From Planctomycetia bacterium (GTDB taxonomy: Bacteria; Planctomycetota; Planctomycetia; Pirellulales; PNKZ01): a DNA stretch of 64,000 bases. Numbering within the stretch: position 1 is the stretch's first letter; each line of letters opens with the position of its first letter. Below the pieces are notes generated by a model that saw only the letters and a program-made list of their open reading frames with translations, was not told where the DNA came from and did no database searches. Of the stretch, positions 48,517 to 64,000 are shown one piece after another. The position numbers were made by a program, and so were the translations under genes. The stretch lies in the NCBI GenBank assembly GCA_021413845.1, contig JAIOPP010000075.1, forward strand, positions 62,001-126,000. The letters run 5' to 3'.

Positions 48517-49047
48517 GACCGTGGCCTCTCGGAGCTAGACAATGGGGGGTGCGATCGGCGTTGCTCGTATCTAGTTGGCTAATATCAGTTTACGTTGGTT
48601 TTTGCGAAGTGGTTCACCAACGGCGAAGCCGTATATTACTCGTCGCCGAAGCGGAGCGGCAAGCAGCCTTTTCGTGGGAGAACGGCCGCTTAAGGGCGGG
48701 TTTTGCGGCCGAACTTGCCCCGTTCGGCCAAATTCGGGGTCGCAAGGCCGTGTCGGGAACCGACTTTACGCTCCGTGCGTCCAATCCGTCGGTCGAAATC
48801 GTCGGAAGGATCAAAAACGGCGTTCCGGTTGTAATATCGAACGGTGTGGAGCGAATGTAGAAGTCGTAGGTTAATTTCAATGAGCTTTTGCCAAGTCGGC
48901 ATCGCTCAGGGTAAATTAAAGGGTTGGAATAGAGAGTCCGAGACGAGCTATCGGCAGACCGAATGCGGGGGGCGTGCGACGCCGCCTCGCTGCCGCCGAT
49001 TGGCCCCACCAGGAAAGCGCATCCCCAAGAAGGATGCGATTGCGCCC
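48517..49047. other. 530-base gap upstream of the pseudokinase gene
   Basis: No convincing gene was found between the divergent gdhA and pseudokinase genes. A 103-residue open frame at 48549-48860 has no domain or Shine-Dalgarno and looks like a shadow. Part of the region is likely to carry regulatory DNA, including the promoter candidate at 48888-48917. Confidence 0.5.
48888..48917 (+). promoter_or_regulatory. Candidate sigma-70 type promoter
   Basis: TTGCCA (48888-48893) and TAAATT (48912-48917) have an 18-base spacer and lie about 130 bases before the ATG at 49048. This is a weak match, and would give a leader of about 120 bases for the pseudokinase gene. Confidence 0.3.
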
Positions 49048-52000
49048 ATGTCGTTTCCCGTTGAATCGTTTTGGAAGTTAGTCGTCGATGCGCAACTTCT
49101 CACGTTGGAAGATTGCCATCGGCATCATGCCGGCTGGCTACAGCAAAACCCGCAAGGGGGCGACGCTCAGAGTCTCGCCGAGTTTCTCGTAGCGACGAAC
49201 GTCATCAGCCGCTACCAAGCGTCGATCTTGCTCGCGGGCCGAGCCGGGCCGTTCGTCTACGGCGACTACCGAATCTACGACCGGATCGAGTCGGGCCGAC
49301 TCTCCGGAATCTTCCGCGCCCTCCACATTCAAACGATGCATCGGGTCTGTCTGCAATTTCTCACCGCCGAACAAGCGGCATCACCCGAAGCGGTCGCGTA
49401 TCTCACGCAACGCTCTACGCTCACGTCGCAAGTCAGCGCGGGCTGCCCCAACTTGCTGCGCTGCTACCATTTGGTCGATCTCGGGCCGTTCAAGTTTTTC
49501 GTGTTGGAAGATCTGCAAGGGAAGCGTGTCGAGCGGCTGCTGCAACAGCAAGGCGCGATGAAGCCGAGCGAGGCTTGCCGTATCATCCGTCAAGCGGCGC
49601 TCGGATTGGCTCGGATGCACTCCATGCAGCAAGCGCACGGCGATGTGCGCCCGTCGAACATTTGGGTCGATGCCGCCGTCGCGGGTGCCAAAGGGACCGT
49701 GAAGATGTTGCAGTTCCCGATGGTGCGCGATCCGCTTGCGCCGCCGATCGAATGGCGTAAGCAACTCGCGCTCGGCGACGGGAAGATCCCGCCGGAAGCA
49801 GACTTCGTCGCTCCGGAGTTGATCGGCGGCGGCGTTGCCGATGCTCGGAGCGATATCTATCAGCTCGGTTGCAGCTTCTATCAGATGCTTACGAATAAAC
49901 CGCCGTTCGCCGGCGAGACGTTGCGCGCGAAGTTGGAAGGGCATCTGAAGGAACAACCGACGCCGATCCACAAGCTGAATCCGAACGTGCCGACCGATCT
50001 TTCCAAGCTCATCGGCTACATGTTGCAAAAGAAACCCGAGATGCGGTTTCAGCAGGTCTCGGTGGTCGTCGAGAAGTTGGTGCCGTTTATGTCGACGGCC
50101 GAGTCGCAAATGCAACCGCCGCCGCCGAGCCGAAATGCGACTGCCTACGACGCTTGGATTGCCGAGACGTTGAATGCCGCCGCGGCGGCCGCTGCCGCGA
50201 ACCCCGGCTACGGGCACGGCACGCAGCAAGCGCCGCAACAGCAGCAACCGATGCAACAACATCCGATGCAGCAGCCCATGCAGCAAGCTCCGATGGGAGG
50301 GCAATACGGAGCCGCGCCGAATCCTTATAATCAACAGCCCGCTCAGTTCGGCCAACAGCCCGCTCCGTATGGTCAGCAACCGGCATCGCCGTTCGGTCAG
50401 CAGCAGCCTGCCGCTTTCGGTCAACAACCGGCTCCTTTCGGACAACAGCCGGCCTCCCCGCAGCCGTTCGCCGCGCCGCAACCTTTCAGTGCGCCGCAGC
50501 CGTTTGCCCCGCCGATGGGTTCGGCACCGGCCGGACCTGCCGTCGGAACAAGCGAAACCTATCAACCGAAGAAAGGTTCATCGTTCGGATTGATCGCGAT
50601 CTTGATCGCGGTGCCGCTCCTCGGCGCGGCCGGCTACTTCGGTTGGGATCGGTTTATGAAGAAGCGCCCCGGCTTGCCGCCGGAACGCGTCGCTCTCCGA
50701 CCGAATGCCACCGGAACGGCCGTTAAGAAGCCCGTGCCTACGGGCACCGCTCCTACGCCGACGGCGACGGCCGCCGCTCCTAAGGGAGTCGCGGTTCCTA
50801 AACGAGATCTCATCGCCTCGACCGGTGCGGATCCGATGTACGACTCGCCGACCGCCGGAAAGCCGCTTAGCCTAAGCCACATGGTGCCGGGCGTGCAGAT
50901 GGTGATTGCCGTCCGTCCCGCCGAAATCGTCAAGCATGCGGAATCGGCAAACCTTCTCGACCCGAAAGTTTCCGGTTCGCTCGGGCCGTGGCTCGCAACC
51001 ACCTTACCGACGATCACCGGCGTGCCGAACGAAACGGTCGAGCAAGTCATCGTCGGCATTCTCGATGGTCCTAGCTCCGACGCGGTTCGCTATGCCTACG
51101 TGGTTCGATACAACACGGTCGTTGCCGAGGCAGACTTGCTCAAGGCCTGGGGCGGACCCACGGAAGAAATGAGCGACACGACGAAGATCTACGTCAAAGA
51201 CGGAACCGCTTATTACTTACCGACGAGCGAGCAAGGCAAGGTCGCCGTGGTCGTGCCGAAGGAAGAAATCGCCGGCGTCTTGAAATATAAAGGTTCGCCG
51301 CCGCAACTCCGTTTGGAGTTGGAATATTTGGTGCAGTCGGCGACCGATACGGATCGCCACCTCACGATGCTTTACACCCCATACTTCTTAGAGTCGGGCG
51401 GCAAGAGCTTGGTCGCCGGACCCGTGCAGACGGGCCTGCCCGCCATCAATTGGTTGCTCACCGGGGTCGGCTTGCCGCAATTGGCGTCGGCGGGCGACGG
51501 CAGCACTGCCGATGGAGGTGGCCTCGCCGACGGCGGCGCAATGTCGGGGTCGATGAATTCCGAAGATGCCTTGCCGCCCAAAGCGATTGCCTTCAGCGCC
51601 CACCTCGGCGATGCGTTTTTCTACGAGCTCCGTACCTATAACGGTGCCGCGACGGCGTTCACGGAAGCCTTGGCCGAACCGTTGTTCAATCGTGTGAAAG
51701 AAATTCCGAAGCGGGTCGAAGCCTATGTGCTGAGTTCTCGGCTATCGCCTTATAGTCGGGCCGTGTTGTTCAAATTTCCCGGCATGGTGAAGTTCGTCGA
51801 CAGCCACGTGCGCGCAGGCTGCGCCGATCGGCAGATCGTGTTGCGCGGGTACATGCCCGCCATCGCGGCACACAACATTCTCCTCGGTGCCTATCTCTGT
51901 TTGCTCGAATCCCCGAGCGCCGTCGCTGCGCCGACCGCGGTCGCAAAAGGCCCGGCGAGCCCCGCCGCCACGGCCGGGCTGACCGGCGCCCAAGCGGCGA

Positions 52001-52347
52001 TCAAGAAACCGATGTCGCTCACCTTCGACCGCAACAATCTCGAAGTGACGATGCAATTGATCGCGGAAGAAATCGGAGTGCCGATCGAAATCATCGGAAC
52101 CGATCTGCAGCTCGAAGGGATCACGAAGAATCAATCGTTCGGACTCGACGAAAAGGTTCAGCCCGCCGATCAGATCTTGCGTACGATCATGAAGAAAGCC
52201 AATCCCGACGGCAAGTTGGTGTACGTCATCAAGCCAAAGAAGCCGGGAGATCCCGACATGATCTTCATCACGACGCGCGCCGCCGTAGAGAAGCGGAAAG
52301 ACAAGCTTCCGGCCGAACTCGTCGCGGCTCCTCCTGCGAAGAAATAA
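49048..52347 (+). CDS. Membrane pseudokinase with Gln/Pro linker and C-terminal secretin-like short domain
   Basis: The 1099-residue protein has a Ser/Thr kinase fold at about 72-350. It appears inactive: the Lys of the VAIK site is absent (CLQFL in its place), the catalytic loop reads AHGDVRPSN (Asp199 kept) and no DFG is seen; the later parts (DFVAPELIGG, DARSDIYQLGCSFYQML) are conserved. A Gln/Pro/Phe repeat linker (392-490) is followed by a membrane helix (512-533), a large extracytoplasmic region, and a C-terminal STN-like domain (989-1075) resembling secretin N-terminal modules. Planctomycetes have many kinase fusions; this combination is unusual. Start ATG 49048. Next gene is 68 bases downstream. 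Confidence 0.82.
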   Translation: MSFPVESFWKLVVDAQLLTLEDCHRHHAGWLQQNPQGGDAQSLAEFLVATNVISRYQASILLAGRAGPFVYGDYRIYDRIESGRLSGIFRALHIQTMHRVCLQFLTAEQAASPEAVAYLTQRSTLTSQVSAGCPNLLRCYHLVDLGPFKFFVLEDLQGKRVERLLQQQGAMKPSEACRIIRQAALGLARMHSMQQAHGDVRPSNIWVDAAVAGAKGTVKMLQFPMVRDPLAPPIEWRKQLALGDGKIPPEADFVAPELIGGGVADARSDIYQLGCSFYQMLTNKPPFAGETLRAKLEGHLKEQPTPIHKLNPNVPTDLSKLIGYMLQKKPEMRFQQVSVVVEKLVPFMSTAESQMQPPPPSRNATAYDAWIAETLNAAAAAAAANPGYGHGTQQAPQQQQPMQQHPMQQPMQQAPMGGQYGAAPNPYNQQPAQFGQQPAPYGQQPASPFGQQQPAAFGQQPAPFGQQPASPQPFAAPQPFSAPQPFAPPMGSAPAGPAVGTSETYQPKKGSSFGLIAILIAVPLLGAAGYFGWDRFMKKRPGLPPERVALRPNATGTAVKKPVPTGTAPTPTATAAAPKGVAVPKRDLIASTGADPMYDSPTAGKPLSLSHMVPGVQMVIAVRPAEIVKHAESANLLDPKVSGSLGPWLATTLPTITGVPNETVEQVIVGILDGPSSDAVRYAYVVRYNTVVAEADLLKAWGGPTEEMSDTTKIYVKDGTAYYLPTSEQGKVAVVVPKEEIAGVLKYKGSPPQLRLELEYLVQSATDTDRHLTMLYTPYFLESGGKSLVAGPVQTGLPAINWLLTGVGLPQLASAGDGSTADGGGLADGGAMSGSMNSEDALPPKAIAFSAHLGDAFFYELRTYNGAATAFTEALAEPLFNRVKEIPKRVEAYVLSSRLSPYSRAVLFKFPGMVKFVDSHVRAGCADRQIVLRGYMPAIAAHNILLGAYLCLLESPSAVAAPTAVAKGPASPAATAGLTGAQAAIKKPMSLTFDRNNLEVTMQLIAEEIGVPIEIIGTDLQLEGITKNQSFGLDEKVQPADQILRTIMKKANPDGKLVYVIKPKKPGDPDMIFITTRAAVEKRKDKLPAELVAAPPAKK
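50221..50517 (+). repeat. Gln/Pro/Phe repeat-coding segment
   Basis: Residues 392-490 of the pseudokinase contain many copies of short units such as FGQQPA and PQPF, with variable DNA (mixed codons), so selection is at protein level. The stretch is a flexible linker between kinase fold and membrane helix. It is not a CRISPR or satellite. Confidence 0.8.
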
Positions 52348-52415
52348 GGCAAGAGTAGCAACGACGCGGAAGCTTGCGCGACCCGTTCTTTGAGTCGGAC
52401 TTCGAGGCGTGCATC

Positions 52416-54374
52416 GTGGAATTGTTTTCCGTAGCCTGCATCACGTGCCGAGCCAAGATCAAGGTTCGGAGTATGTCGGCGATCGGACAAGTGCTCGCTT
52501 GCCCGCGCTGCGGCGGTATGGTCGAGATCTCTCCGCCGATGGGTTGGAAGCCGCCGGCCGGCAAACCTGAGCCGGAAGCGAAACCCCAGGCGAGACCCAC
52601 AACGACGGATCGCCTAGAACCTCCGGTGCCTGCCGCCGCCGTGACGCCGACCGAAGGTTATGTCGGCATCGCCGAACCGGTCCTCGACGACGATCCGCTC
52701 GCCGAAGCGATGCGGCTTTCCGCCGAGCGCGAACGGTCGCAGCGCAAGTTACTGCTCGTCGGCGGAGCGTGCGCCGGAGCGGCACTCTTGGTATTAGGGC
52801 TTTGGTTCGGTTTCCGCAAGCCGACGGAGGAACCGACCGCGAGCAATACTAAGGCTCCGGAAGTCGCGCCCCCTGCGCCGTTGCCGAGTCCCACGCCGAA
52901 GGTAATTCCCACCGCAACGGCCGCGGCGATTTCGTCGCCTCCCGCGCCGGTTCCATCGGCTTCGTTGCCCGTGCCGACACCGACGTCCTCGGCACCGGTC
53001 GTTCCCGTGCCGAGCGCTACATCGCCTCCGCCTCCCGTGCCGCTCGCGACACCGACTGCGACGCCCTCTGCAACGGCCCTCGCACGTATCGATCCGCCGT
53101 CGAAGATACCGCCGCTGCCGGTCCCTAGTGCGACTCCCATTGCAAAAGGGACGAAGCCTCTCGTAGCGGTTCCCCTACCGGAAACGGAAGCTCGGTTGGC
53201 GATGAAAGCTCCCGTGATCGATCTGTCCGGAACGACACGCAAGAACGCGCTCGACGTCGTCGGCCGATTGGCCGGAGTCGGCATCCGATACGACTGGGAT
53301 ACGCTTGCTCCGGCGTCTCTCAAGCTTTCCGAGCAGGTGACGCTCAAGCTGCGTGATGTGTCGTATGCCGAAGCATTAAAGAAGATCCTCGAACCGGTCC
53401 ACGGCACATATCAAGTCGTCGGCAGCAACGTATCGGTTCGTCCTTTGTCGAACGGTGCGCGGCCGAATGACTTGCGCTATCCGCTCGGAGTTCTGACGGC
53501 CGGCGATGCGGGGCAGACGGAGAAGCTGTTGACGCTCGTTCGCGCTTTCGTCGAGCCCTCTGTCTGGGACTCGTCCGGCGGCACGGGAACGCTCAAGGTC
53601 GAGGCCGATCAACTCGTCGCAACCGGTTCGACGGATGTTCAAGCTGCGCTGATGCCCGGCGAGCTGACCTTGTTTCTCGATCGCCTCACGACGGCGTGCG
53701 GCAAGCGGCCGACCGGTTCGCCGCCGAGTTTGGAGTCGCGTGCGGCGCAAGCGAAGAAAACGCTGGATAAACTCGTGACGATGAACTTTCGGCCGGGCGT
53801 GCCGCTCGCCGGAGTGCTGGCCCATTTGGAGAAGAGTGCCGACGTGATCATCACCGTCGATTTCATAGCGCTCGCCGACCATGGTTTTCTTCCCGATGCG
53901 AAGATCGGCATCGCGGCCGATAAATATCCGCTCGCGCAAGTTTTCTCCGCGTTGTGCGAGCCGCGCGATTGGGCCTGGCGAATCATCGATGACAAGACCT
54001 TCGAGATCACGACGCGCGAATCGCTCAAACGCCGTGGCTATGTCGAGTTCCACGATCTCAAGCCTCTGACGACGGCCGGCATCGCCCCCGTCGTGTTGAT
54101 CGAACAATTGAAAACGCAATTCGCCGACGCCGGTTGGCGTGAAACCGGAGGCGAAGGAGTTCTCTACTACGACGCTCTCTCAGGCCGGCTCCTGGTTCGA
54201 CAGCACCAAGACGCCCAACTGCGAATCGAGCGATTCCTTTCGGAACTCACCGCGGCGGCGATCGGCAACGCTTCGTCCATCGGCAGCGCAGTGCCGCTCG
54301 GTAACACCGTGCCGAAGGCAACACCGACCGGCACGCCCGCCCCGAGCAACTCACCGCCGCTTTCCGCTCCTTAG
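52416..54374 (+). CDS. Zinc-ribbon membrane protein with two secretin-like short domains
   Basis: From GTG 52416 (652 residues, GAGG eight bases upstream) the protein opens with a zinc ribbon: CITC at 8-11 and CPRC at 29-32. A membrane helix follows (LLLVGGACAGAALLVLGLWFGF, about 110-132), then a Pro/Ala/Ser/Thr linker. The extracytoplasmic part has two STN-like modules (SGTTRKNALDVVGRLAGV...; RPGVPLAGVLAHLEKSA... with DWAWRIIDDKTFEI). It shares module type with the preceding pseudokinase, so the two probably work together. The zinc ribbon faces the cytoplasm. Ends four bases over the next, convergent gene. Confidence 0.78.
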   Translation: MELFSVACITCRAKIKVRSMSAIGQVLACPRCGGMVEISPPMGWKPPAGKPEPEAKPQARPTTTDRLEPPVPAAAVTPTEGYVGIAEPVLDDDPLAEAMRLSAERERSQRKLLLVGGACAGAALLVLGLWFGFRKPTEEPTASNTKAPEVAPPAPLPSPTPKVIPTATAAAISSPPAPVPSASLPVPTPTSSAPVVPVPSATSPPPPVPLATPTATPSATALARIDPPSKIPPLPVPSATPIAKGTKPLVAVPLPETEARLAMKAPVIDLSGTTRKNALDVVGRLAGVGIRYDWDTLAPASLKLSEQVTLKLRDVSYAEALKKILEPVHGTYQVVGSNVSVRPLSNGARPNDLRYPLGVLTAGDAGQTEKLLTLVRAFVEPSVWDSSGGTGTLKVEADQLVATGSTDVQAALMPGELTLFLDRLTTACGKRPTGSPPSLESRAAQAKKTLDKLVTMNFRPGVPLAGVLAHLEKSADVIITVDFIALADHGFLPDAKIGIAADKYPLAQVFSALCEPRDWAWRIIDDKTFEITTRESLKRRGYVEFHDLKPLTTAGIAPVVLIEQLKTQFADAGWRETGGEGVLYYDALSGRLLVRQHQDAQLRIERFLSELTAAAIGNASSIGSAVPLGNTVPKATPTGTPAPSNSPPLSAP

Positions 54375-56102
54375 CGCGCTCCGTCGCGCCGCAGACCGAA
54401 CGACAGAAACCGGATCCCCGTCGGTTCGTCGACGACGATCGTTCCGCCCGGAGCGAAATACTTTTGCAGCGTCTCGATCGGCGGCAAAGGGCGGTCGGCA
54501 AGTGCTTGGTTCAAATCTTTGAGTAGCGGATTCCGTTCGCCGCCGCGGGCCATCTGCTCTCGGATACGCTCGTTGAATGCGAGGCCATGCACGAACCGCA
54601 GTTCTTCGTCGGGCCGTGAAAATGCAAAGTAACCCGGCCCTTGATCGCCGGCGTAGCGCTTCGCCTTTCCTGCGATCAACTTATATTCCAAAGACGACGC
54701 CAGGCGATGCGCCTCGTCGCCGGCCGTCGCGATCGCCTTCTCTAAGACACTCGCGCGATCGGCGATCAAGAGGCAATCGCCGAGCAGACAGAACGAGGCT
54801 CGGGGGCGAAGTGCGGCATCGGCTTCCGTTTCATTGCGTCGCAAAGTCGCATCTTGGTAATACGTCGTTCCGGCGTAGCTGCGCGTCGCCAACTTGTCTT
54901 GCAGTTTCGTCGTCATCTTTTTCAATATCGGCAAGAACTTCTTACCGTCTTTCAAATGCACGCCGACGAGTTGCGCTCGGCTTTGCATGCTCACAGGCTC
55001 TTCGATCGAAAGCAGGAAGCTGATGCGACCTTCGAGTTCCGGCAGAAGTTCCGCCTCCAAGTCGATGTCGGTCTGCTTCAACAACGGATCGCGCACTCGA
55101 CCTTGAAACGTTCCCCCGCCGCTGAAGCTGTCGACGATCGTGCGCAGCTTGTGATACGTTCGGTCGACGTCCCAAGCGAACGTCGCGTAGCTCGCCACGG
55201 TGTCGCACACCCACGGCTCGGGCTCGGTCTTCGTCGGCTGCAAGGCGATGAGTTCCAAAACTCCTGAGCGCGGCACATCCAGCAGCAAGTAGCCCTGTAG
55301 GATCGTCTCGAACGCACCTCGATTAAATGTCAGGCTTCCGCCGGCAGCCGTGAGCCCATCGAGCCCGAGTGCCGGCAATAAGGTAAGGCCGACTTGCGCC
55401 GCGGTGTTGTTGCGAGTCGTAGTTTGCCGGTGTCGCACCGTTCGAGGCAGTTGTCCCGTTCCAGATCGCCACGATTCGCTTGACGACATCGAGATCGGTG
55501 CCGATCACCAACACTCCTTCGCGACGAAGATAGAGCACTCGCTGAGCGCGTCCGGCCCCGGATCGAAAAACATTCAACTTCAGATCCCCGACCGACTCCG
55601 ACTCTTCAATCCATCCGGCCGCGAGCGCCGTCGCTCGGCCGCGCTCGAGAAGCGTCGCAACGCTCCGATCTCCCTCAGGCACTTCCATAAGAAACAATAG
55701 AGCGGGGGACGCACCATCGACGCCGACGATCGCAACGCCGCATTCGCCGTGCGAGAGCCCTAGCAACTCGGCCAACGATAAGCCGAGCCGTTCCTTCACC
55801 GGCTCGAACGCCTTTTCCACCGCCGCGAACGCTTGATCCAGCAGCGGCTTGAATTGCGGGTCTTGCGCCATTCTTCCGATCGAGGTCTTCCACCACTCTT
55901 CGCGAACCAGTGAAGCGTCCGGAGCGCGAACGTAAGCGAGCGTTTCCGGCGGCAACATGCGAGCGAACTCGACCCGCTTCGTTGCCCCACGCGTTACATC
56001 CTCAGCGGCTTTCGCGCGTACAGGCTCCAGCGATACGCCGAGCATGGCGGCGACAAGGCAAAAATAGAAAGCCGAGATTCGGCGAACGACTGTCCGATAC
56101 AT
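54371..56102 (-). pseudogene. Exported or envelope protein, apparently disrupted by frameshift/deletion
   Basis: Two overlapping frames encode parts of one protein. The first (from ATG 56102) has a signal segment (RISAFYFCLVAAMLGVSL), EFARMLPPETLAYVR and GVLVIGTDLDVVKRIVAIW and then loses sense after about 55440. The second frame resumes with RNNTAAQVGLTLLPALGLDGLTAAGG near 55420 and runs on to 54371 with WDVDRTYHKL and ISFLLSIEEP. From memory, related planctomycete proteins have about 40 more residues between these points, so a deletion plus frame change, rather than a single base, is likely. Either a pseudogene or an assembly artefact. Confidence 0.65.
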
Positions 56103-56169: not shown

Positions 56170-56219
56170 GAAACTCAATCGAGTCACTTAGTCGCTAGAG
56201 AATGACGAAAGGCGCAGCG

Positions 56220-57044
56220 ATGAATCGATCGACGAAGCTCGTTGCGGCAGCCCTGGCCTACGTCGCGCCTCTCTGCTGCGGCTCGTTCGCCGAAGCTCAG
56301 CAGAGCGCGAGTTCGGGAAGCAGCGGCGCTTTCGGCGCGCGTTCACTTGGTTCGAGTTTCTCGCCAACCGCAAGCGGCTTCGCCCCCGGCGGCAGCAACG
56401 GGCTCGGTGCCGGCATGGGGGGCGTCGCAGGAATGACGACCCGCGGCGACAACACCGCCGGGCAAGTTTCAGGCAACGAACGCTTCGTGCGCGGCAGCCG
56501 CAGGCCGGGACAATTCGTCGGGGCAGACAATGCCGACACGTCGAACTTGATGAGCCAACTCTCTTCGATGGCTTCGCAAAACCAGCTCGGCCCGCAACGG
56601 AACAACAACGCGGCGAACCCGAACCGCACGACGGGCAACCTCGGCCTTGGTGCGCGGCGTGTCCAGCCGCGCGTGGCCGTGAGCGTCGGCTTCGATTATC
56701 GCACTGCGGGATCCGACGAAGCCGGCACCGTCTTGCAGAATCGGTTCACCAAGTCGTCGCGGCCCGGCCTACGTGGGCGCGTCATTGTGAATTTGGAAGG
56801 GACGACGGCGGTGCTTCGAGGGAATGTTGCCACGGAACACGACCGCGTTCTAGCCGAGCAAGTGGCGCTCCTAGAGGCCGGCGTCGGGTCGGTTCGAAAT
56901 GAGCTGCAGGTGATCCAGAGGGAGAACCTGCCGACGCAGCAGGCGCCGTCGATCCAGCCGCTGAGCCCGCAAAGCCCGACGATGAAGTCGGCGCCGTCGA
57001 GTACCGGCTCGAATAGCTTGCGTTTGGTGCCGCCGGCTCCGTAG
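56220..57044 (+). CDS. Exported protein with C-terminal BON domain
   Basis: The 274-residue protein has a signal peptide (KLVAAALAYVAPLCCGSFAEA), a Gly/Ser/Asn-rich linker of about 110 residues, and a C-terminal BON domain (about 180-235: GRVIVNLEGTTAVLRGNV, AEQVALLEAGVGSVRNELQV), a module that binds membranes or other envelope proteins. ATG 56220 is preferred over 56202, with AAAGG upstream. The 3' 263 bases overlap the convergent lipoprotein gene. Role unknown; the fold and position suggest an accessory for the secretin apparatus. Confidence 0.78.
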   Translation: MNRSTKLVAAALAYVAPLCCGSFAEAQQSASSGSSGAFGARSLGSSFSPTASGFAPGGSNGLGAGMGGVAGMTTRGDNTAGQVSGNERFVRGSRRPGQFVGADNADTSNLMSQLSSMASQNQLGPQRNNNAANPNRTTGNLGLGARRVQPRVAVSVGFDYRTAGSDEAGTVLQNRFTKSSRPGLRGRVIVNLEGTTAVLRGNVATEHDRVLAEQVALLEAGVGSVRNELQVIQRENLPTQQAPSIQPLSPQSPTMKSAPSSTGSNSLRLVPPAP

Positions 57045-57843: not shown

Positions 57844-60800
57844 TTATGGTTGCCGCGGTGGTTCGATCGGAGCGGCGTACTGAACTTGCACGACGCCGGA
57901 TTGCGAGCCCGCTTCATTCGGTGCGGCTTCGCTCGGAGGTGCGACGTTTTGCACGGGCCAGCGCGGAGCCGGTGCGAGGCTACCGTCGGTCGGCGGCGGA
58001 GTCTTCATCGGAACGACGATCGGCTTTTCATCGAGTGTCGCAGGGGGAGTCGCGCCGTTGTTGGGAGCCGGAAGTTCGACGGCAGGATGCGGAATCGGCG
58101 TGCCGTGCGGCGATTCGTCGGGATAGATCACCATCGTCTCTTCGTCGGCCCAAAGATCGTTGCGTGTTTGCAGGCCGTTGTTGCCGTAGAGTGCCTTCAC
58201 GTCTCCCAAGCACCACGACATCCGTGCCGATTCGATCTGCCGCAATCGAGCCGCATCTTGCTCGGTGCGAACGACGTGCGGCGTCATGATGATCAGAAGT
58301 TCGGTCCGTTCGCTCGTGATGTTGTCGTAACGGAATAGATTGCCGAGAATCGGAATCGACGACAACACCGGTACGCGGCGATGCACTTGCGACTTCGCCT
58401 TCGTAATCAAACCGCCGAGCACCACGGTTTGGCCGTTCATCGCGCTGACGGTCGTTTGCGCGGTCGTCGTATTGATGACCGGTTGACGCACGACTTCACC
58501 GGTCGTCGAAACGGAAATCGGTACACCTTCCGCTTCAGGCCCAAGAGCCGATTTCTCGGCGTCGATTTCCATCACCACTAAGCCATCGGGGCTGATTCTC
58601 GGCGTCACTCCGAGGATCAGCCCGACGTTCACATCGACCACGTTGTTGACTTGCCCGGTCGTGTTGATGGTCACTCCTTGCACACGCGGCACGCGCGAGC
58701 CGACTTGCACGAATGCGGCTTGGTTGTCGAGCGTCATCACTTGCGGACGACTGAGCACGTCGAGCCGACGACTTTCCTGTAGTGCGCGAATCAACACGCT
58801 CACGCTTTCGCTGCTCGCCGACAATACGAGACCGCCGAAGCCGAGATCGGCGTTCGTGCGTCCGACCGCGAAATTCGAAAGCCCTTGCGCGCCGAGTCGG
58901 CCGGAATTGGCTAGCGCCTTGTTGCTGCCGCTGTTGCCGAGTGGGGCATTATTGAATGCGTAGCCGGGATTGTTCGTCGCCGCGACGACGTTCTGATTCT
59001 GCGTCGTGATCGTACCGCCGCCGGGGACGGCTTGCTGCGTCGAGTTCGTAACGGTGACGAGATCGCCGAGCAGGCTGCGGTCGAACAAAATCGAATCTTG
59101 TAAGCCGAGCTCGATGCCGAACTCGTCGGTATTGTTGAGCGCCACTTCGGCGATGAGCACTTGAATCATCACCATCGGCGGTCGTGCGTCGATCTGCTCC
59201 ACAACCTTGCGAATCTCTTCGAAGTAGCGCGGAGTCGAACTCACGATCAGGCTGTTGCTCACCGGTTCCGGCACGACGACCACTTCGCGCTCGATCTGCT
59301 CGAAAGGGCTCAGCAAGCCCGACGATACTTGCTGCACGTCGCGCTCGCTTCGGAGAAACTGGTTGATCGCCTGAGCGACGTCCGCAGCCGGTGCGTTCTT
59401 CAAGCGGTAGACCGTGCTCTGGCGTTGACGAATGTCGCTGTCGTCGAGCCGTAGAAGAATCGCTTCGACGACGGTGAGATCGTCGGCACTGCCGGAAGCG
59501 ATGATGCTGTTGGTCCGTTGATCGACGGAGAACCGCAACCGAACGAGCAAGTTCGCCGTTCCTTGTTGCGATTGGGCTCCTTGCGCACCGAAGCCGCCGG
59601 CCGTTTGCGTTTGCAGCCCGAACAAGGCATTGAGCATTTCGACGAGCCGCGTGGCATCGCCGTTGACGATCGTAAAGACCTTGATTTGAGCCCGAGCCGC
59701 GGGCGTAGCGTCGAGCTGACGTACGAGCGCGGCGATCAAATCCATCGCTTCGGCCGGAGCGGAAACGACGAGCGAGTTGGCTCGCGCATCGGCCGTGATC
59801 CGGACTTCGGTGAGAATGCCCGAGCGATATTGCTTGTGCCCTTGCGAGTCGATAGTGCTGAACCGCAATGCGGCCGAGCGTGGTCCCGGCGCGGTCGCGG
59901 CATTCGCTCCCGGTTGTGCTCCTGCGCCGCCGAGTGCCCCGGCGATAGCTCCTGCCGGCGTGTTGCCGGTCGTGCCGAGTTGCGCGTTGACCGACTCTTG
60001 CAATACCGGCGCAAGTTCGTCGGCCAGAGCGTTGTCGAGATGAAACACACGGAGTTCGTTTTCCGCTTCGCCCGTCGTGACGTCGAGCCGCTTAATAAGC
60101 TCACCGGCTTCGATCAAATCGCGAGGGCCGCCGCGCACGATCAGGGAATTGCTCCGCACGTCGGCCGTGATCTGGATTTTCGTCGAGAGGCCCGGCCGGT
60201 CGACGAAGAAGCTTTGCAACGTCGTTTGCACGGCCGTGGCCGTGGCATGCTTCAACGGATACACGGCGAATTGCGAAGCGGGATCGACCGGTTGATCGAG
60301 CTTCTTCACAAGCTCTTGCACCGCTTGCACGCTCTCGGCGCGACCGATCAGCAACAGTGCGTTCGGCTTCACGAGCGCCGTAATGCTCACTTTCCCCTGT
60401 CGGGGCGAAAGAACGGCATCGTAGATTTGCGTCACGACGCCGGTGAGCGCTTCGCCCGAAACATGCGCGAGCGGCACGATCTCGATCGTCGGCTTCGTGT
60501 CGACGCTGAGGCGTTCGATATCTTCGATGATCTTCAAGACGCGCTCGACATCGCGATCGTTGCCGCTCACGACGAGCACGTCGAGCCCCTCGAGGAATTC
60601 GATCTGCACGGGCCCGACGAGTCCGGTGTTCGTGCCGAGCGCCGCTTGTACGTCGGCGGCGACCGTTGCTGCATTGCGATTCGGAATACCTTGATTCGGT
60701 GTGTCTTGATTCGTCGGTGGATTTACGGCCTGAGCTTGCGCCGCGGCGGCGGGAATCGGCGGCGCGACGGCACCTGCGGGCACTTGAGCGTTGTTCGCCT

Positions 60801-61914
60801 GATTGGGATTACGAGGCTGGAAAACCTGCGCCATGAGCGGCATCGTTTCCGGTAACGCTCCTCGCTCGCTCTCGCGATCGGTGTCCGGTTTCGCAGCGAT
60901 CCGGTGCGACACGGTCATCGCTTGCCGCAACGACTCTTGATCGGCAGCGCGATAGGGGACGACATGCTTAGGAGCTTCTTCGGCTTTCCGATCGAAAGCG
61001 GCGATCAGTTTCGCAGCCGCGGTCGCACGACGCTCGTCTCCGACGAACTCGATCGAGCGGCGCGCCGGATCGTAGACGATTTCCAGCGGCTCCGCCTCCT
61101 TGAGCGCCAATCGTAGGCGAACCCGTCCATCTCCTTCAGTGGTCGTGGTCGAGAGGCGCACACCGTAGAGACGCCGAATCTGAGCTTCAAGCGTCGGCCA
61201 TTCAATTGAGCGTAGCGTGACGCTTAGAGCGTTCGCCGCGGTGAGTTCGGGAACGCCCTGAGGTTGCATGGCGATCGGCGGTGTCGCCACCGGCTGCAGT
61301 TGCGCATCCACGAAGTTTGCGATCTGTTGTTGCGTTGCTTCGTCGGCAACGACGAGCACCTGGCCGGTGCGCGCATCGGCTGCGATGCGAGTCGCGCCTG
61401 CGGCATAACGGCGACGTAGCTCCTCGGCCAGCGTTTCCGGAGCGATGCCGGGCAATAAGTACGAGCGCATCGACGGGGCGACGGCCGGTGTCGAGGCGGC
61501 GGCGACTGTCGCACGGTCGAGATTAGCGACGGCTTGTGCCGCGAGGTTTTGAGTTTGCGGCGAGCCGCGGATCAGGAGACGATTCGTGTTCGCATCGACG
61601 ACGATCTCGAAACGCTCGCCGCTTCCGGAAAGAAGCGATTCGAGTTGCGCCCGTATTTCCTCGGCGCGCACGTTCCGCAACGCATAGGCTTCATACGTTC
61701 CGACGATCGCGGAAGGCGTCGACTGCGCTTGCGCCGCCGGCAGCGCGATATGCGCGAGCCACAATAGCACCGGCAACCATCGTGTGAGATGGTGCTGCGC
61801 GCTAGATCGTTGATTGGCGGTCGCGAAATTCACTTCGAGCGTCGCTGAGCGGGATTTGCCCCCCCGCCAGTTCGACTGCCGTACGCAAGTATGCCGGCGC
61901 ATACTTCGCGACAC
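57844..61914 (-). CDS. Very large secretin (GspD/PilQ family) with about nine N-terminal modules
   Basis: Secretins form outer-membrane gates of type II secretion or type IV pilus machines. This 1356-residue protein has a signal region (LPVLLWLAHIALPAAQA, 47-63), nine N1-like modules (73-134, 151-206, 228-308, 424-470, 475-540, 548-610, 620-735, 742-824, 832-909) many with a TNSLIV-like strand and ending in LD, then the secretin core (912-1215) with VPVLSSIPILGNLFR at 1181-1195. A Pro-rich tail follows. Typical GspD has three or four N-domains and 650-700 residues. The start is unclear: GTG 61914, ATG 61902 or GTG 61833. Confidence 0.92.
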   Translation of the reverse strand: MSRSMRRHTCVRQSNWRGGKSRSATLEVNFATANQRSSAQHHLTRWLPVLLWLAHIALPAAQAQSTPSAIVGTYEAYALRNVRAEEIRAQLESLLSGSGERFEIVVDANTNRLLIRGSPQTQNLAAQAVANLDRATVAAASTPAVAPSMRSYLLPGIAPETLAEELRRRYAAGATRIAADARTGQVLVVADEATQQQIANFVDAQLQPVATPPIAMQPQGVPELTAANALSVTLRSIEWPTLEAQIRRLYGVRLSTTTTEGDGRVRLRLALKEAEPLEIVYDPARRSIEFVGDERRATAAAKLIAAFDRKAEEAPKHVVPYRAADQESLRQAMTVSHRIAAKPDTDRESERGALPETMPLMAQVFQPRNPNQANNAQVPAGAVAPPIPAAAAQAQAVNPPTNQDTPNQGIPNRNAATVAADVQAALGTNTGLVGPVQIEFLEGLDVLVVSGNDRDVERVLKIIEDIERLSVDTKPTIEIVPLAHVSGEALTGVVTQIYDAVLSPRQGKVSITALVKPNALLLIGRAESVQAVQELVKKLDQPVDPASQFAVYPLKHATATAVQTTLQSFFVDRPGLSTKIQITADVRSNSLIVRGGPRDLIEAGELIKRLDVTTGEAENELRVFHLDNALADELAPVLQESVNAQLGTTGNTPAGAIAGALGGAGAQPGANAATAPGPRSAALRFSTIDSQGHKQYRSGILTEVRITADARANSLVVSAPAEAMDLIAALVRQLDATPAARAQIKVFTIVNGDATRLVEMLNALFGLQTQTAGGFGAQGAQSQQGTANLLVRLRFSVDQRTNSIIASGSADDLTVVEAILLRLDDSDIRQRQSTVYRLKNAPAADVAQAINQFLRSERDVQQVSSGLLSPFEQIEREVVVVPEPVSNSLIVSSTPRYFEEIRKVVEQIDARPPMVMIQVLIAEVALNNTDEFGIELGLQDSILFDRSLLGDLVTVTNSTQQAVPGGGTITTQNQNVVAATNNPGYAFNNAPLGNSGSNKALANSGRLGAQGLSNFAVGRTNADLGFGGLVLSASSESVSVLIRALQESRRLDVLSRPQVMTLDNQAAFVQVGSRVPRVQGVTINTTGQVNNVVDVNVGLILGVTPRISPDGLVVMEIDAEKSALGPEAEGVPISVSTTGEVVRQPVINTTTAQTTVSAMNGQTVVLGGLITKAKSQVHRRVPVLSSIPILGNLFRYDNITSERTELLIIMTPHVVRTEQDAARLRQIESARMSWCLGDVKALYGNNGLQTRNDLWADEETMVIYPDESPHGTPIPHPAVELPAPNNGATPPATLDEKPIVVPMKTPPPTDGSLAPAPRWPVQNVAPPSEAAPNEAGSQSGVVQVQYAAPIEPPRQP

Positions 61915-62025: not shown

Positions 62026-62976
62026 TTATAACGGCGCTGCCGGCAACTCGACCGCTTGCCCGAGCGATTTTCCGAGACTGACGATGCGGCGTTTTCCGGC
62101 CGAATCGATTTCGATTTCTTGATCGCCGATGCGCACGAGCTTGCCGGAGAATTGCCCGACTTCGACCGCATCGCCGACGGAGAGCTTCAACAATTGATTC
62201 GTCGGGCGAACGTTGAGCCAAGCCTGGGGTTTGAAGTCGACGAAAATGATCGACGTCAGAAATGTGAACTTCGCCGGATCGAACGCCGGCGGGGCAGGAG
62301 GAATCGCTTCAACGGCGATCTTCGGCGGAACGGCAGGCGGTGGAGGAACATACGGCGCAAATACGTTACGCGCGACGATCGCTTGAGCGAGTTCCGTCCC
62401 GCGGGCTTCGTCGAGCTTAGAGCCTGTCGTTGTGTTCAAAGTATCGGCTCGGGTCGCGTCGTCGACGGCGAGCGCTTCGATGCCGGCCGTGAGTTGTACT
62501 CCACCGCCGTCGAGCGCAGGCTGGAGCGAGACGTCGCGCAGTTGATGCAGATGATCGGCCCGATAAAAAGTAGCGAGCCAAGCAGCTACTTGGGCGAGCG
62601 TCCCTCGGGCACGAAGCGTAAACGGCAGCTTCGTATAAATGCCGCGCAACTGCGTGCTTCGGCCGGGCTCTACGTTGACCTGCGTCAACTGCGCGCGGTC
62701 GACCGTACCGACCAGCCAGTTCTGATACAACGAACGTGCCAACTCCGCATCGCGCGGTAAAGATTTCTCTTCCCACGTGGCCAGCCGTTCGTTGTCGAGT
62801 CCGGCTCGAGCGATGAAGAGGCGCTTCTTTTGTACTTCCTTCGTGAGCGATTCGATTTGCCCGCGGCGCAACTGCATCGCCTCGTCGAACGATTGACGAC
62901 CGAGCCATGCGACGGTGACGAGCCCCAGCGCGGCGACGACCGCGGCCAGCTTTTTCTCGCGAGGTTCAAGAGCCAT
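62026..62976 (-). CDS. PilO/PilP-like component of the secretin system
   Basis: The 316-residue protein has an N-terminal membrane helix (AAVVAALGLVTVAWLG), a helical stretch, a PilO/GspM-like ferredoxin-fold section (RGIYTKLPFTLRARGTLAQVAAWLATFY), and a C-terminal beta domain similar to PilP/GspC (FLTSIIFVDFKPQAWLNVR, LKLSVGDAVEVG). Such proteins bridge the inner-membrane platform to the secretin. Its ATG overlaps the end of the upstream gene by 11 bases, so both belong to one operon. No catalytic motif exists. Confidence 0.75.
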   Translation of the reverse strand: MALEPREKKLAAVVAALGLVTVAWLGRQSFDEAMQLRRGQIESLTKEVQKKRLFIARAGLDNERLATWEEKSLPRDAELARSLYQNWLVGTVDRAQLTQVNVEPGRSTQLRGIYTKLPFTLRARGTLAQVAAWLATFYRADHLHQLRDVSLQPALDGGGVQLTAGIEALAVDDATRADTLNTTTGSKLDEARGTELAQAIVARNVFAPYVPPPPAVPPKIAVEAIPPAPPAFDPAKFTFLTSIIFVDFKPQAWLNVRPTNQLLKLSVGDAVEVGQFSGKLVRIGDQEIEIDSAGKRRIVSLGKSLGQAVELPAAPL

Positions 62977-64000
62977 TAGCTCCCCCTTTCACGATGGGAG
63001 GAGCATTCGCCTGCACCGGCTTCGCTGCCTGTGCATCGGTCTTTACCGTCAGGTTCGACTTAAATCGCCAAGGGTAGCGGCTTGTTTGCGGATCGTGCTG
63101 CCGTCCTTTGCCTTCGATCGAATGCTGTGCATCGCGCAAGCGCCGTTCGAGCTCATCCACGACGTCGGCATCGCTCACCAGCCCGGACATTTGCAACTCG
63201 CCTCCTTGCGGATGCGCGGTGAAGCGAAGTTGCGTGAGTTGTAGTTGCTCGGCCGAGGGCGCGAGCCGCGAAAGCCGTTCAAGCTCGGCAAGCCACACGA
63301 CGTCAGACTTCAACCAGCGCTCGATCTCGGTCGCTTTCCGTTCGATCTCGGCTGCGGTTTTCACCGGTGCTTCGAGCGCGCTCGAAGTTCGCTTCAAGGC
63401 GACGATTTCTTCGTCGAGCCCGTTTAAGCGGCTCTTGGCGAAGAGCCAAATCCCGGCGAAGAGCAATGTCGCACAGAACGCGCCGATCAGAACTTGCTTG
63501 CGACGATTCGGAGGTGGAGCGGCCCGGCGCGGGTTCACGAAGTCGAACCGTGGACGAACTCCCTCCGCTTCATCGGCCGCCATGCCGAGCACTGCGGCGA
63601 AGCGACCATGCGCGGCCTCGTCGGTCGCCGCGTATTCGAGCGGCTCCGGCAGCGGTTTCCAGGGATCGACTAAATCGACCGCCACGACCAACTCGCTCGC
63701 AAGTTTCGTTGCCGTCGCGGCCCAATCGTCGGCCGCGCCGCAAAGCTCGATCCTTTCCACGCGCCGTTCCGGCCACTGATGATGCACGGCCGCGAGCGTG
63801 CGGCGAAGCTCGCTCGACAATGCACGGGCATATTCCGGCGCTGCCGTATCGCCCGGCATGCGTGCGCTTCGCAGCAGCACGATGTTCGGTCCGACGAGCG
63901 CCGTGACCTCGGCCTCGTCCGCCGCCGGCTCGACCAATAGTCGCGCTACGTCGTCGTGCGGCAATCGCCGCAAAGCCAACGACGCCGTTGCCGCCGGGCG
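62966..64000 (-). CDS. PilM/PilN (GspL)-like assembly protein, N-terminus cut by window edge
   Basis: The frame is open to the window end (344 residues present), so the start is missing. The first half is a cytosolic, actin-like part of PilM/GspL type (ALVGPNIVLLRSARMPGD, VERIELCGAADDW), then a membrane helix (VLIGAFCATLLFAGIWLFA, about 170), and a PilN-like periplasmic half with coiled coil (AEIERKATEIERWLK) and the ferredoxin-like TQLRFTAHPQGGELQMSG. It is the first gene seen of the secretin operon and overlaps its next gene by 11 bases. Confidence 0.75.
   Translation of the reverse strand, partial: RPAATASLALRRLPHDDVARLLVEPAADEAEVTALVGPNIVLLRSARMPGDTAAPEYARALSSELRRTLAAVHHQWPERRVERIELCGAADDWAATATKLASELVVAVDLVDPWKPLPEPLEYAATDEAAHGRFAAVLGMAADEAEGVRPRFDFVNPRRAAPPPNRRKQVLIGAFCATLLFAGIWLFAKSRLNGLDEEIVALKRTSSALEAPVKTAAEIERKATEIERWLKSDVVWLAELERLSRLAPSAEQLQLTQLRFTAHPQGGELQMSGLVSDADVVDELERRLRDAQHSIEGKGRQHDPQTSRYPWRFKSNLTVKTDAQAAKPVQANAPPIVKGGANGS

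Follow-up and report, generated by a model that had tools for sequence, protein, structure and literature searches.

The stretch of planctomycete DNA analysed here (64,000 nucleotides of a Planctomycetia bacterium, G000:C75:62001-126000, from an assembly of 7.08 Mb; hereafter the window) encodes an unusually large GspD, the secretin of the type II secretion system (T2SS). We consider it probable, though well short of assured, that this protein is the outer-membrane half of a two-piece and unusually long periplasmic T2SS conduit. In the proposed arrangement, the core-bearing GspD would supply the pore and nine N1-type modules, and a separate periplasmic partner, encoded from the start of the T2SS operon, would supply the part proximal to the inner membrane.

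Modules and class of the window GspD

A module profile, built on modules M5-M9 of the window GspD and iterated with relatives, was used to count modules in extracted proteins. It matches the window GspD nine times and GspD of E. coli K-12 exactly three times, three being the textbook number of N1-type modules for the E. coli protein. Pfam finds Secretin_N in eight stretches of the window protein (E 1.4e-82) and the Secretin core once. In an AlphaFold2 model, nine successive beta-alpha-beta-beta-alpha units and no further folded domain are found between residues 66 and 930; this model was made from a 3-row alignment, and has a mean per-residue confidence (pLDDT) of 54.7, with about 65-83 for M1-M3, and a predicted template-modelling score (pTM) of 0.28. 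Its low-confidence loops are at the positions of the inserts in M4 and M7. A preliminary description of this DNA had proposed about nine N1-like repeats before a single secretin core, followed by a Pro-rich tail, and this architecture is borne out by the sequence, the profile, Pfam and the model; the opposing case, unrelated fillers between three or four N-domains, is refuted by the nine modules of profile and model. T2SS secretins head the Foldseek results for the model. We relied on matches of single domains, as the scores of whole-model matches are low, the arrangement of the domains not being confidently predicted.

GspD homologues from the order of the window (34 entries, including a few duplicates and entries that end at contig ends) have five to nine modules, and the complete ones seven to nine. 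None of 811 plasmid records, taken as a limited contrast, covers 80% of the window GspD query.

Measured against the curated NCBIfam cut-offs, the window protein scores above that of type_II_gspD TIGR02517 (367.9 bits, cut-off 351.35), and below those of PilQ TIGR02515 (205.1 bits, cut-off 284.35) and the type III secretion system secretin model. The canonical GspD layout is N0 followed by three N1-type modules, whereas the window protein has nine and no N0. N0 is absent from every giant GspD of the order that we examined, the first N1 module following soon after the signal peptide. Judged from its sequence, the protein is a T2SS secretin variant and not a canonical GspD; it is filed as a variant because its core, profile score and operon are all those of a T2SS, yet its periplasmic part is non-canonical. 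The genome of the window carries six further secretin-core loci (L002-L007), of which one is a fragment and one ends at a contig end.

The coreless partner and its relation to GspD

The contig end upstream of GspE and an LTXXQ-family gene falls inside a second Secretin_N protein, which has no core (L008:16627-18519). Full-length orthologues of this partner start with a signal peptide, followed by a helical LTXXQ-like part (an N-terminal region with LTxxQ-like motifs that is predicted to be all-helical), N0 and about seven N1 modules, and end in a Gly-rich tail, again with no core. By sequence, N0 gives a weak Pfam match, and hhalign aligns it at full length to the E. coli N0 with E 7e-4 and a probability of 27%. 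The structure model of the partner, in which 498 residues have a pLDDT of at least 90, is decisive: residues 246-326 match E. coli GspD N0 (4jtm; Z 11.3, root-mean-square deviation (rmsd) 2.6 over 80 residues) and GspD in complex with GspC (3oss; Z 10.2 and rmsd 1.9 over 77), and on this prediction the partner carries N0. N0-N3 of PulD are matched in order along residues 253-560 (Z 14.9) with an rmsd of 12.2, so that the domains match and their relative placing does not.

A scan of 84,980 species genomes yielded 158 confirmed partner loci. Among the best 80 of the 158, which were examined, N0 is present in all, N1 modules are present wherever the sequence is long enough, and a core is found in none; every title that names a group says Planctomycetota. 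The cultured Blastopirellula marina DSM 3645 has the partner (L101). Some loci carry expanded partners, with 16, 18, 21, 25, 26, 32 or 36 N1 modules. The coreless N0 protein with 36 (L087:4723-14517, plus strand, a frame of 3265 aa) is found in a genome that also holds a seven-module partner (L086). Another coreless protein (L089:1439-7264, minus strand) contains near-identical consecutive copies of an N1 pair, that is, a recent tandem duplication.

Partner and giant GspD tend to be found together. Across 57 genomes of the order, 37 have both and 18 have neither, with a single discordant genome in each direction, both of them draft assemblies (Fisher p 1e-12, a test in which ancestry is ignored). 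Families f1, f5, f12 and f13 each contain both states. GspE lies downstream of the partner on the same strand in 20 of the best 80 of the 158 loci, with gaps of 4-2857 nt, many of the other loci being truncated. In two loci (L216 and L220) of family f21 of the class, by our reading Planctomycetales, the T2SS operon opens with the partner gene and closes with GspD; 4 bp separate partner and GspE in L216.

Relatives in which the corresponding parts form one chain point to the origin of the pair. Within the class of the window, families f94 and f97 have single-chain secretins of 1.9-2.3 thousand residues composed of N0, 11-13 N1 modules and the core. In local alignments, the single-chain secretins of f94, f95 and f97 are colinear with the partner and the window GspD: the N-terminal half matches residues 252-700 and 896-1064 of the partner, and the C-terminal half residues 434-1276 of the window GspD. 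Genome G302 encodes a single-chain secretin of 3269 aa (N0, 32 N1 modules and core) and, elsewhere (L214), an adjacent pair of N0 with eight N1 modules and six N1 modules with a core. In a tree of secretin cores, the long-array secretins form one clade (support 100/99), outside which fall the short planctomycete secretins and that of E. coli. Secretins of the window's order make up a nested clade (100/99), whose sister is the single-chain L204, with N0, 32 N1 modules and core (95/91). Partner and giant GspD look like the halves of a split long secretin, and the simplest reading of their history would be one module expansion followed by fission into two proteins.

The same observations bear on another role for the coreless protein, that of a T2SS accessory that is not coaxial with the secretin. 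Docked on the inner-membrane platform through its N0, the protein would serve as a scaffold or an adaptor of the GspC kind, and its N1 array would bind substrate, peptidoglycan or the pseudopilus. Such a role would suit the extra all-helical LTXXQ-like domain, the presence of an N0-like domain in some Planctomycetales GspDs as well, and the fact that Pfam and profile comparisons of the operon proteins recognise no GspC. We nevertheless regard it as unlikely, if worth keeping in view, given that in the colinear single-chain secretins the same modules run on into the core and that the N0-N1 order of the partner is that of PulD.

Several observations weigh against a two-piece conduit formed by simple fission. 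The co-occurrence test takes no account of shared ancestry, and in a good number of complete loci the partner is located elsewhere than beside GspE. The f21 GspDs L216, L217 and L220 keep an N0-like domain of their own, and therefore the N0 of the partner is no simple transfer and the history no clean cut. M1-M3 of the window GspD have no counterpart in the single-chain relatives, and on the fission reading were added or changed later. In the window assembly itself, the partner gene is interrupted: its parts lie at the ends of two contigs, which overlap by ten codons and differ there at about 7 of 30 nt, as a strain mixture or two copies might produce.

Long-array secretins and the length of the conduit

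Surveys of module arrays covered Planctomycetota, and a search of the phylum with an N0 profile reached still longer secretins outside the class of the window. These mega-secretins combine N0, an N1 array and a core in one polypeptide of 3580-5073 aa (frame length), and their genes stand at the end of a T2SS operon of the same kind (L179+L191, at G088:C2:1659307-1674525; L180+L192; L200-L201; L177+L193; L178; L176). They have 37, 43, 50, 50, 50 and 52 N1 modules, with gaps between modules that never exceed 60 aa. The three proteins with exactly 50 modules, each from a different species, match at all 50 positions at offset zero; orthologous modules are 87-93% identical, and the nearest module within the same protein is about 33% identical. 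Against the 52-module protein from another family, 37 of 50 modules are still in register. This agreement, together with assemblies of few contigs (one for G138, two for G088), argues that the mega-secretins are not assembly artefacts. The nine-module GspD of the window is a modest member of this long-array series.

Neutral drift in repeat number, with no functional consequence, might be read from the recent near-identical tandem copies in L089 and from partner module numbers that span 7 to 36. Since modules are conserved by position, in three species over the full 50 and in another family over 37, a defined structure is favoured over drift, which we regard as highly improbable.

In GspD and PilQ, N1-type domains form stacked periplasmic rings, and N0 contacts the inner-membrane platform via GspC (PMC8134430, PMC5745081). 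PilQ of Thermus has six rings and measures 350 A including the pore domain (PMC5745081). If the two-piece conduit is built likewise, the N1 modules of many protomers would stack as rings. The partner would be oriented with N0 towards the inner-membrane platform, and its N1 rings would connect to the nine rings of GspD, which in turn would reach the outer-membrane pore. About 16 N1 rings, rather than three, would then enclose the working pseudopilus (GspG-K). We infer in this way the stacking of the rings, the contact between the halves, the length of the tube and its cargo; that extra modules would make a longer periplasmic tube can fairly be expected. Assuming 2.5-3.5 nm per ring, we infer lengths of about 22-32 nm for nine rings, 40-56 nm for sixteen and 125-175 nm for fifty.

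An arrangement in which stacking beneath the pore is confined to the final two or three modules, the extra N1 modules being flexible beads on a string that cross a wide periplasm or capture substrate, would be in keeping with the long low-complexity inserts of M4 and M7 and with the low inter-domain confidence of the window GspD model (pTM as above); several organisations of the N-module have also been proposed for T2SS (PMC10550240). We think such beads improbable: mega-secretin arrays have no inter-module gap above 60 aa, the conservation of modules by position across species argues for a defined structure, and all six N rings are stacked in Thermus PilQ (PMC5745081).

As a broader and more tentative proposal, which we consider less likely than not, the N1 domain would act in Planctomycetota as a ruler that can be counted in modules: a single ancestral N1 expansion would have been followed by fixation of ring number in each lineage, giving tubes, possibly longer than 100 nm, that match each envelope, and that consist of two segments in the lineage of the window. 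Ring numbers would then be about 16 in the two-piece form found here, 11-13 in the single chains, and 37-52 in one chain of 3.6-5.1 thousand residues.

It had been suggested in the preliminary description that a long tube could suit the thick, uneven periplasm and the crateriform pits of planctomycetes, and the system might even build these pits and their fibres. In Planctopirus limnophila, pits bridge the outer and inner membranes and bear pili-like fibres of 12 nm (PMC5394234). However, by cryo-tomography, pits are seen at sites of close apposition between inner membrane and cell wall and not at wide periplasm (PMC5394234), and therefore no need for length follows from them. That paper mentions no secretin, and the system is absent from 18 of the 57 genomes of the order. 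The suggestion is thus unsupported, the likelihood of a tie between this gene and the pits is low, and pit building is in our estimate very unlikely.

The T2SS operon and comparison with known systems

The features of the window GspD and its two operon neighbours are listed in Table 1. The apparent lack of GspE and GspF, reported in the preliminary description, proved to be an effect of the window edge. In the genes beyond base 64000 (L008), going upstream, the rest of GspL is followed by K, J, I, H, G, F and E, so that GspE and GspF lie just upstream of the window. GspG scores above its NCBIfam cut-off (94.4 bits, cut-off 88.85); for GspE and GspF the T2SS models are the best matches, at scores below the cut-offs (618 bits, cut-off 630, and 342 bits, cut-off 424, respectively). 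GspK is identified by Pfam (PF21687, 72 bits), as is GspJ. GspL and GspM are assigned by operon position and weak profiles. The GspL-like protein of the window has no Pfam match of its own, and is identified by its position in the operon and by homologues at the equivalent place in other T2SS operons. In the GspM/PilO-like family, T2SSM is matched by 5 of 19 homologues (best 0.0013) and PilO by 4 of 19, and homologues adjoin GspD in relatives. On gene content and order, the locus has the layout of a T2SS operon, with GspE, F, G, the pseudopilins H-K, L and M.

The C-terminal domain of the GspM/PilO-like protein resembles the HR domain of GspC by eye, but hhalign gives a probability of 0.35% to E. 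coli GspC, the Pfam results for the family contain no T2SSC match, and a profile search of the PDB returns designed repeat proteins at the top, on a 27-residue stretch.

Table 1. Coordinates of the giant GspD, its parts and adjoining operon genes in the window
Feature	Position	Strand	Details
Giant T2SS secretin GspD	57844..61914	(-)	1356 aa, GTG start; nine N1-type modules, without N0
Signal-peptide-like hydrophobic stretch HLTRWLPVLLWLAHIALPAAQAQ	61720..61788	(-)	about aa 43-65; from sequence
Module M1	61492..61701	(-)	aa 72-141; profile match aa 75-134, 43 bits; beta-alpha-beta-beta-alpha in model
Module M2	61276..61491	(-)	aa 142-213; profile match aa 150-203, 27 bits; also in model
Module M3, most divergent	60970..61233	(-)	aa 228-315; profile match aa 232-309, the weakest (11 bits, independent E-value 2e-5); beta-alpha-beta-beta-alpha plus extra strands in model
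Module M4, split by long Pro/Ala-rich insert	60490..60969	(-)	aa 316-475; profile match aa 412-468, 25.5 bits, to second half of module; also in model
Module M5	60277..60489	(-)	aa 476-546; profile match aa 477-542, 42 bits
Module M6	60058..60276	(-)	aa 547-619; profile match aa 548-612, 64.5 bits
Module M7, with insert	59689..60057	(-)	aa 620-742; profile match aa 620-736, 61 bits
Module M8	59422..59688	(-)	aa 743-831; profile match aa 743-825, 53.5 bits
Module M9, next to core	59167..59421	(-)	aa 832-916; profile match aa 832-910, 64.5 bits
Secretin core	58267..58785	(-)	aa 1044-1216; Pfam PF00263, E 3.4e-44
Pro-rich C-terminal tail	57847..58197	(-)	about aa 1240-1356; from sequence
GspM/PilO-like inner-membrane protein	62026..62976	(-)	Pro-rich linker, conserved extra C-terminal domain
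GspL-like protein	62966..64000 and beyond window	(-)	full length 501 aa, L008:5467-6972

Several other genes were noted around these loci. An LTXXQ-family (Spy/CpxP-like) gene lies between the coreless partner gene and GspE (L008:14358-15116, minus strand). In two relatives (L043 and L038), the GspM-like protein upstream of GspD seems to carry an inserted immunoglobulin-like domain, with He_PIG matched in two members. Near gspD, the window encodes a BON-domain protein (56202-57044, plus strand, a weak match) and a DUF3352 protein (54371-55489, minus strand). Also encoded in the window are a zinc-ribbon protein with a weak match to STN, the secretin/TonB N-terminus short domain (52374-54374, plus strand, E 0.0038), and a Ser/Thr protein kinase (48844-52347, plus strand), whose C-terminal stretch is N0/STN-like by eye and has no Pfam match.

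Textbook secretins have three to six rings in the periplasm. GspD/PulD/XcpQ (TIGR02517) share with the system described here the secretin core, the N1-type modules and a GspE-F-G-H-I-J-K-L-M operon. They have three N1 modules, in contrast to the nine of the window GspD, which also lacks N0 and has a long tail, N0 and about seven N1 modules being found in the partner. Thermus thermophilus PilQ similarly has an extended stack of N domains under its core, with which it is proposed to bridge a wide periplasm (PMC5745081). It belongs to a type IV pilus system and has six N domains (N0-N5) in one chain, whereas here nine and about seven modules are distributed over two chains, and relatives have up to 52. 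In the split GspD of the mitochondrial T2SS (GspD plus GspDN1-3), Secretin_N is likewise encoded apart from the pore (PMC8134430). The GspDN proteins amount to three N domains, single or half, and N0 is missing altogether, in contrast to the whole N0-(N1)n protein found here, which is bacterial, operonic and expanded in module number. The Amuc_1098-type PilQ of Verrucomicrobia is another secretin of the Planctomycetes-Verrucomicrobia-Chlamydiae superphylum with weak profile similarity, the window GspD scoring far below the cut-off of its model (85 bits, cut-off 750).

Precedents exist separately for a taller stack (the six rings of Thermus PilQ) and for a split GspD (mitochondrial GspDN). No earlier description of giant or split planctomycete secretins was found in the open literature searched, subscription journals and preprints lying outside it. 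Planctomycetes appear to have extended an ordinary secretion channel far beyond any length that we found described there. Within one phylum with a peculiar, enlarged periplasm, the series of homologous pores comprises 3, 4, 9 (+7), 11-13, 32, 37, 43, 50 and 52 modules, and would allow a direct test of whether the reach of a trans-envelope machine depends on its number of rings. The action of a pseudopilus in a tube of such length, and the assembly of a secretin from two polypeptides, could be addressed as well. As the partner is present in the cultured B. marina, these questions are experimentally approachable.

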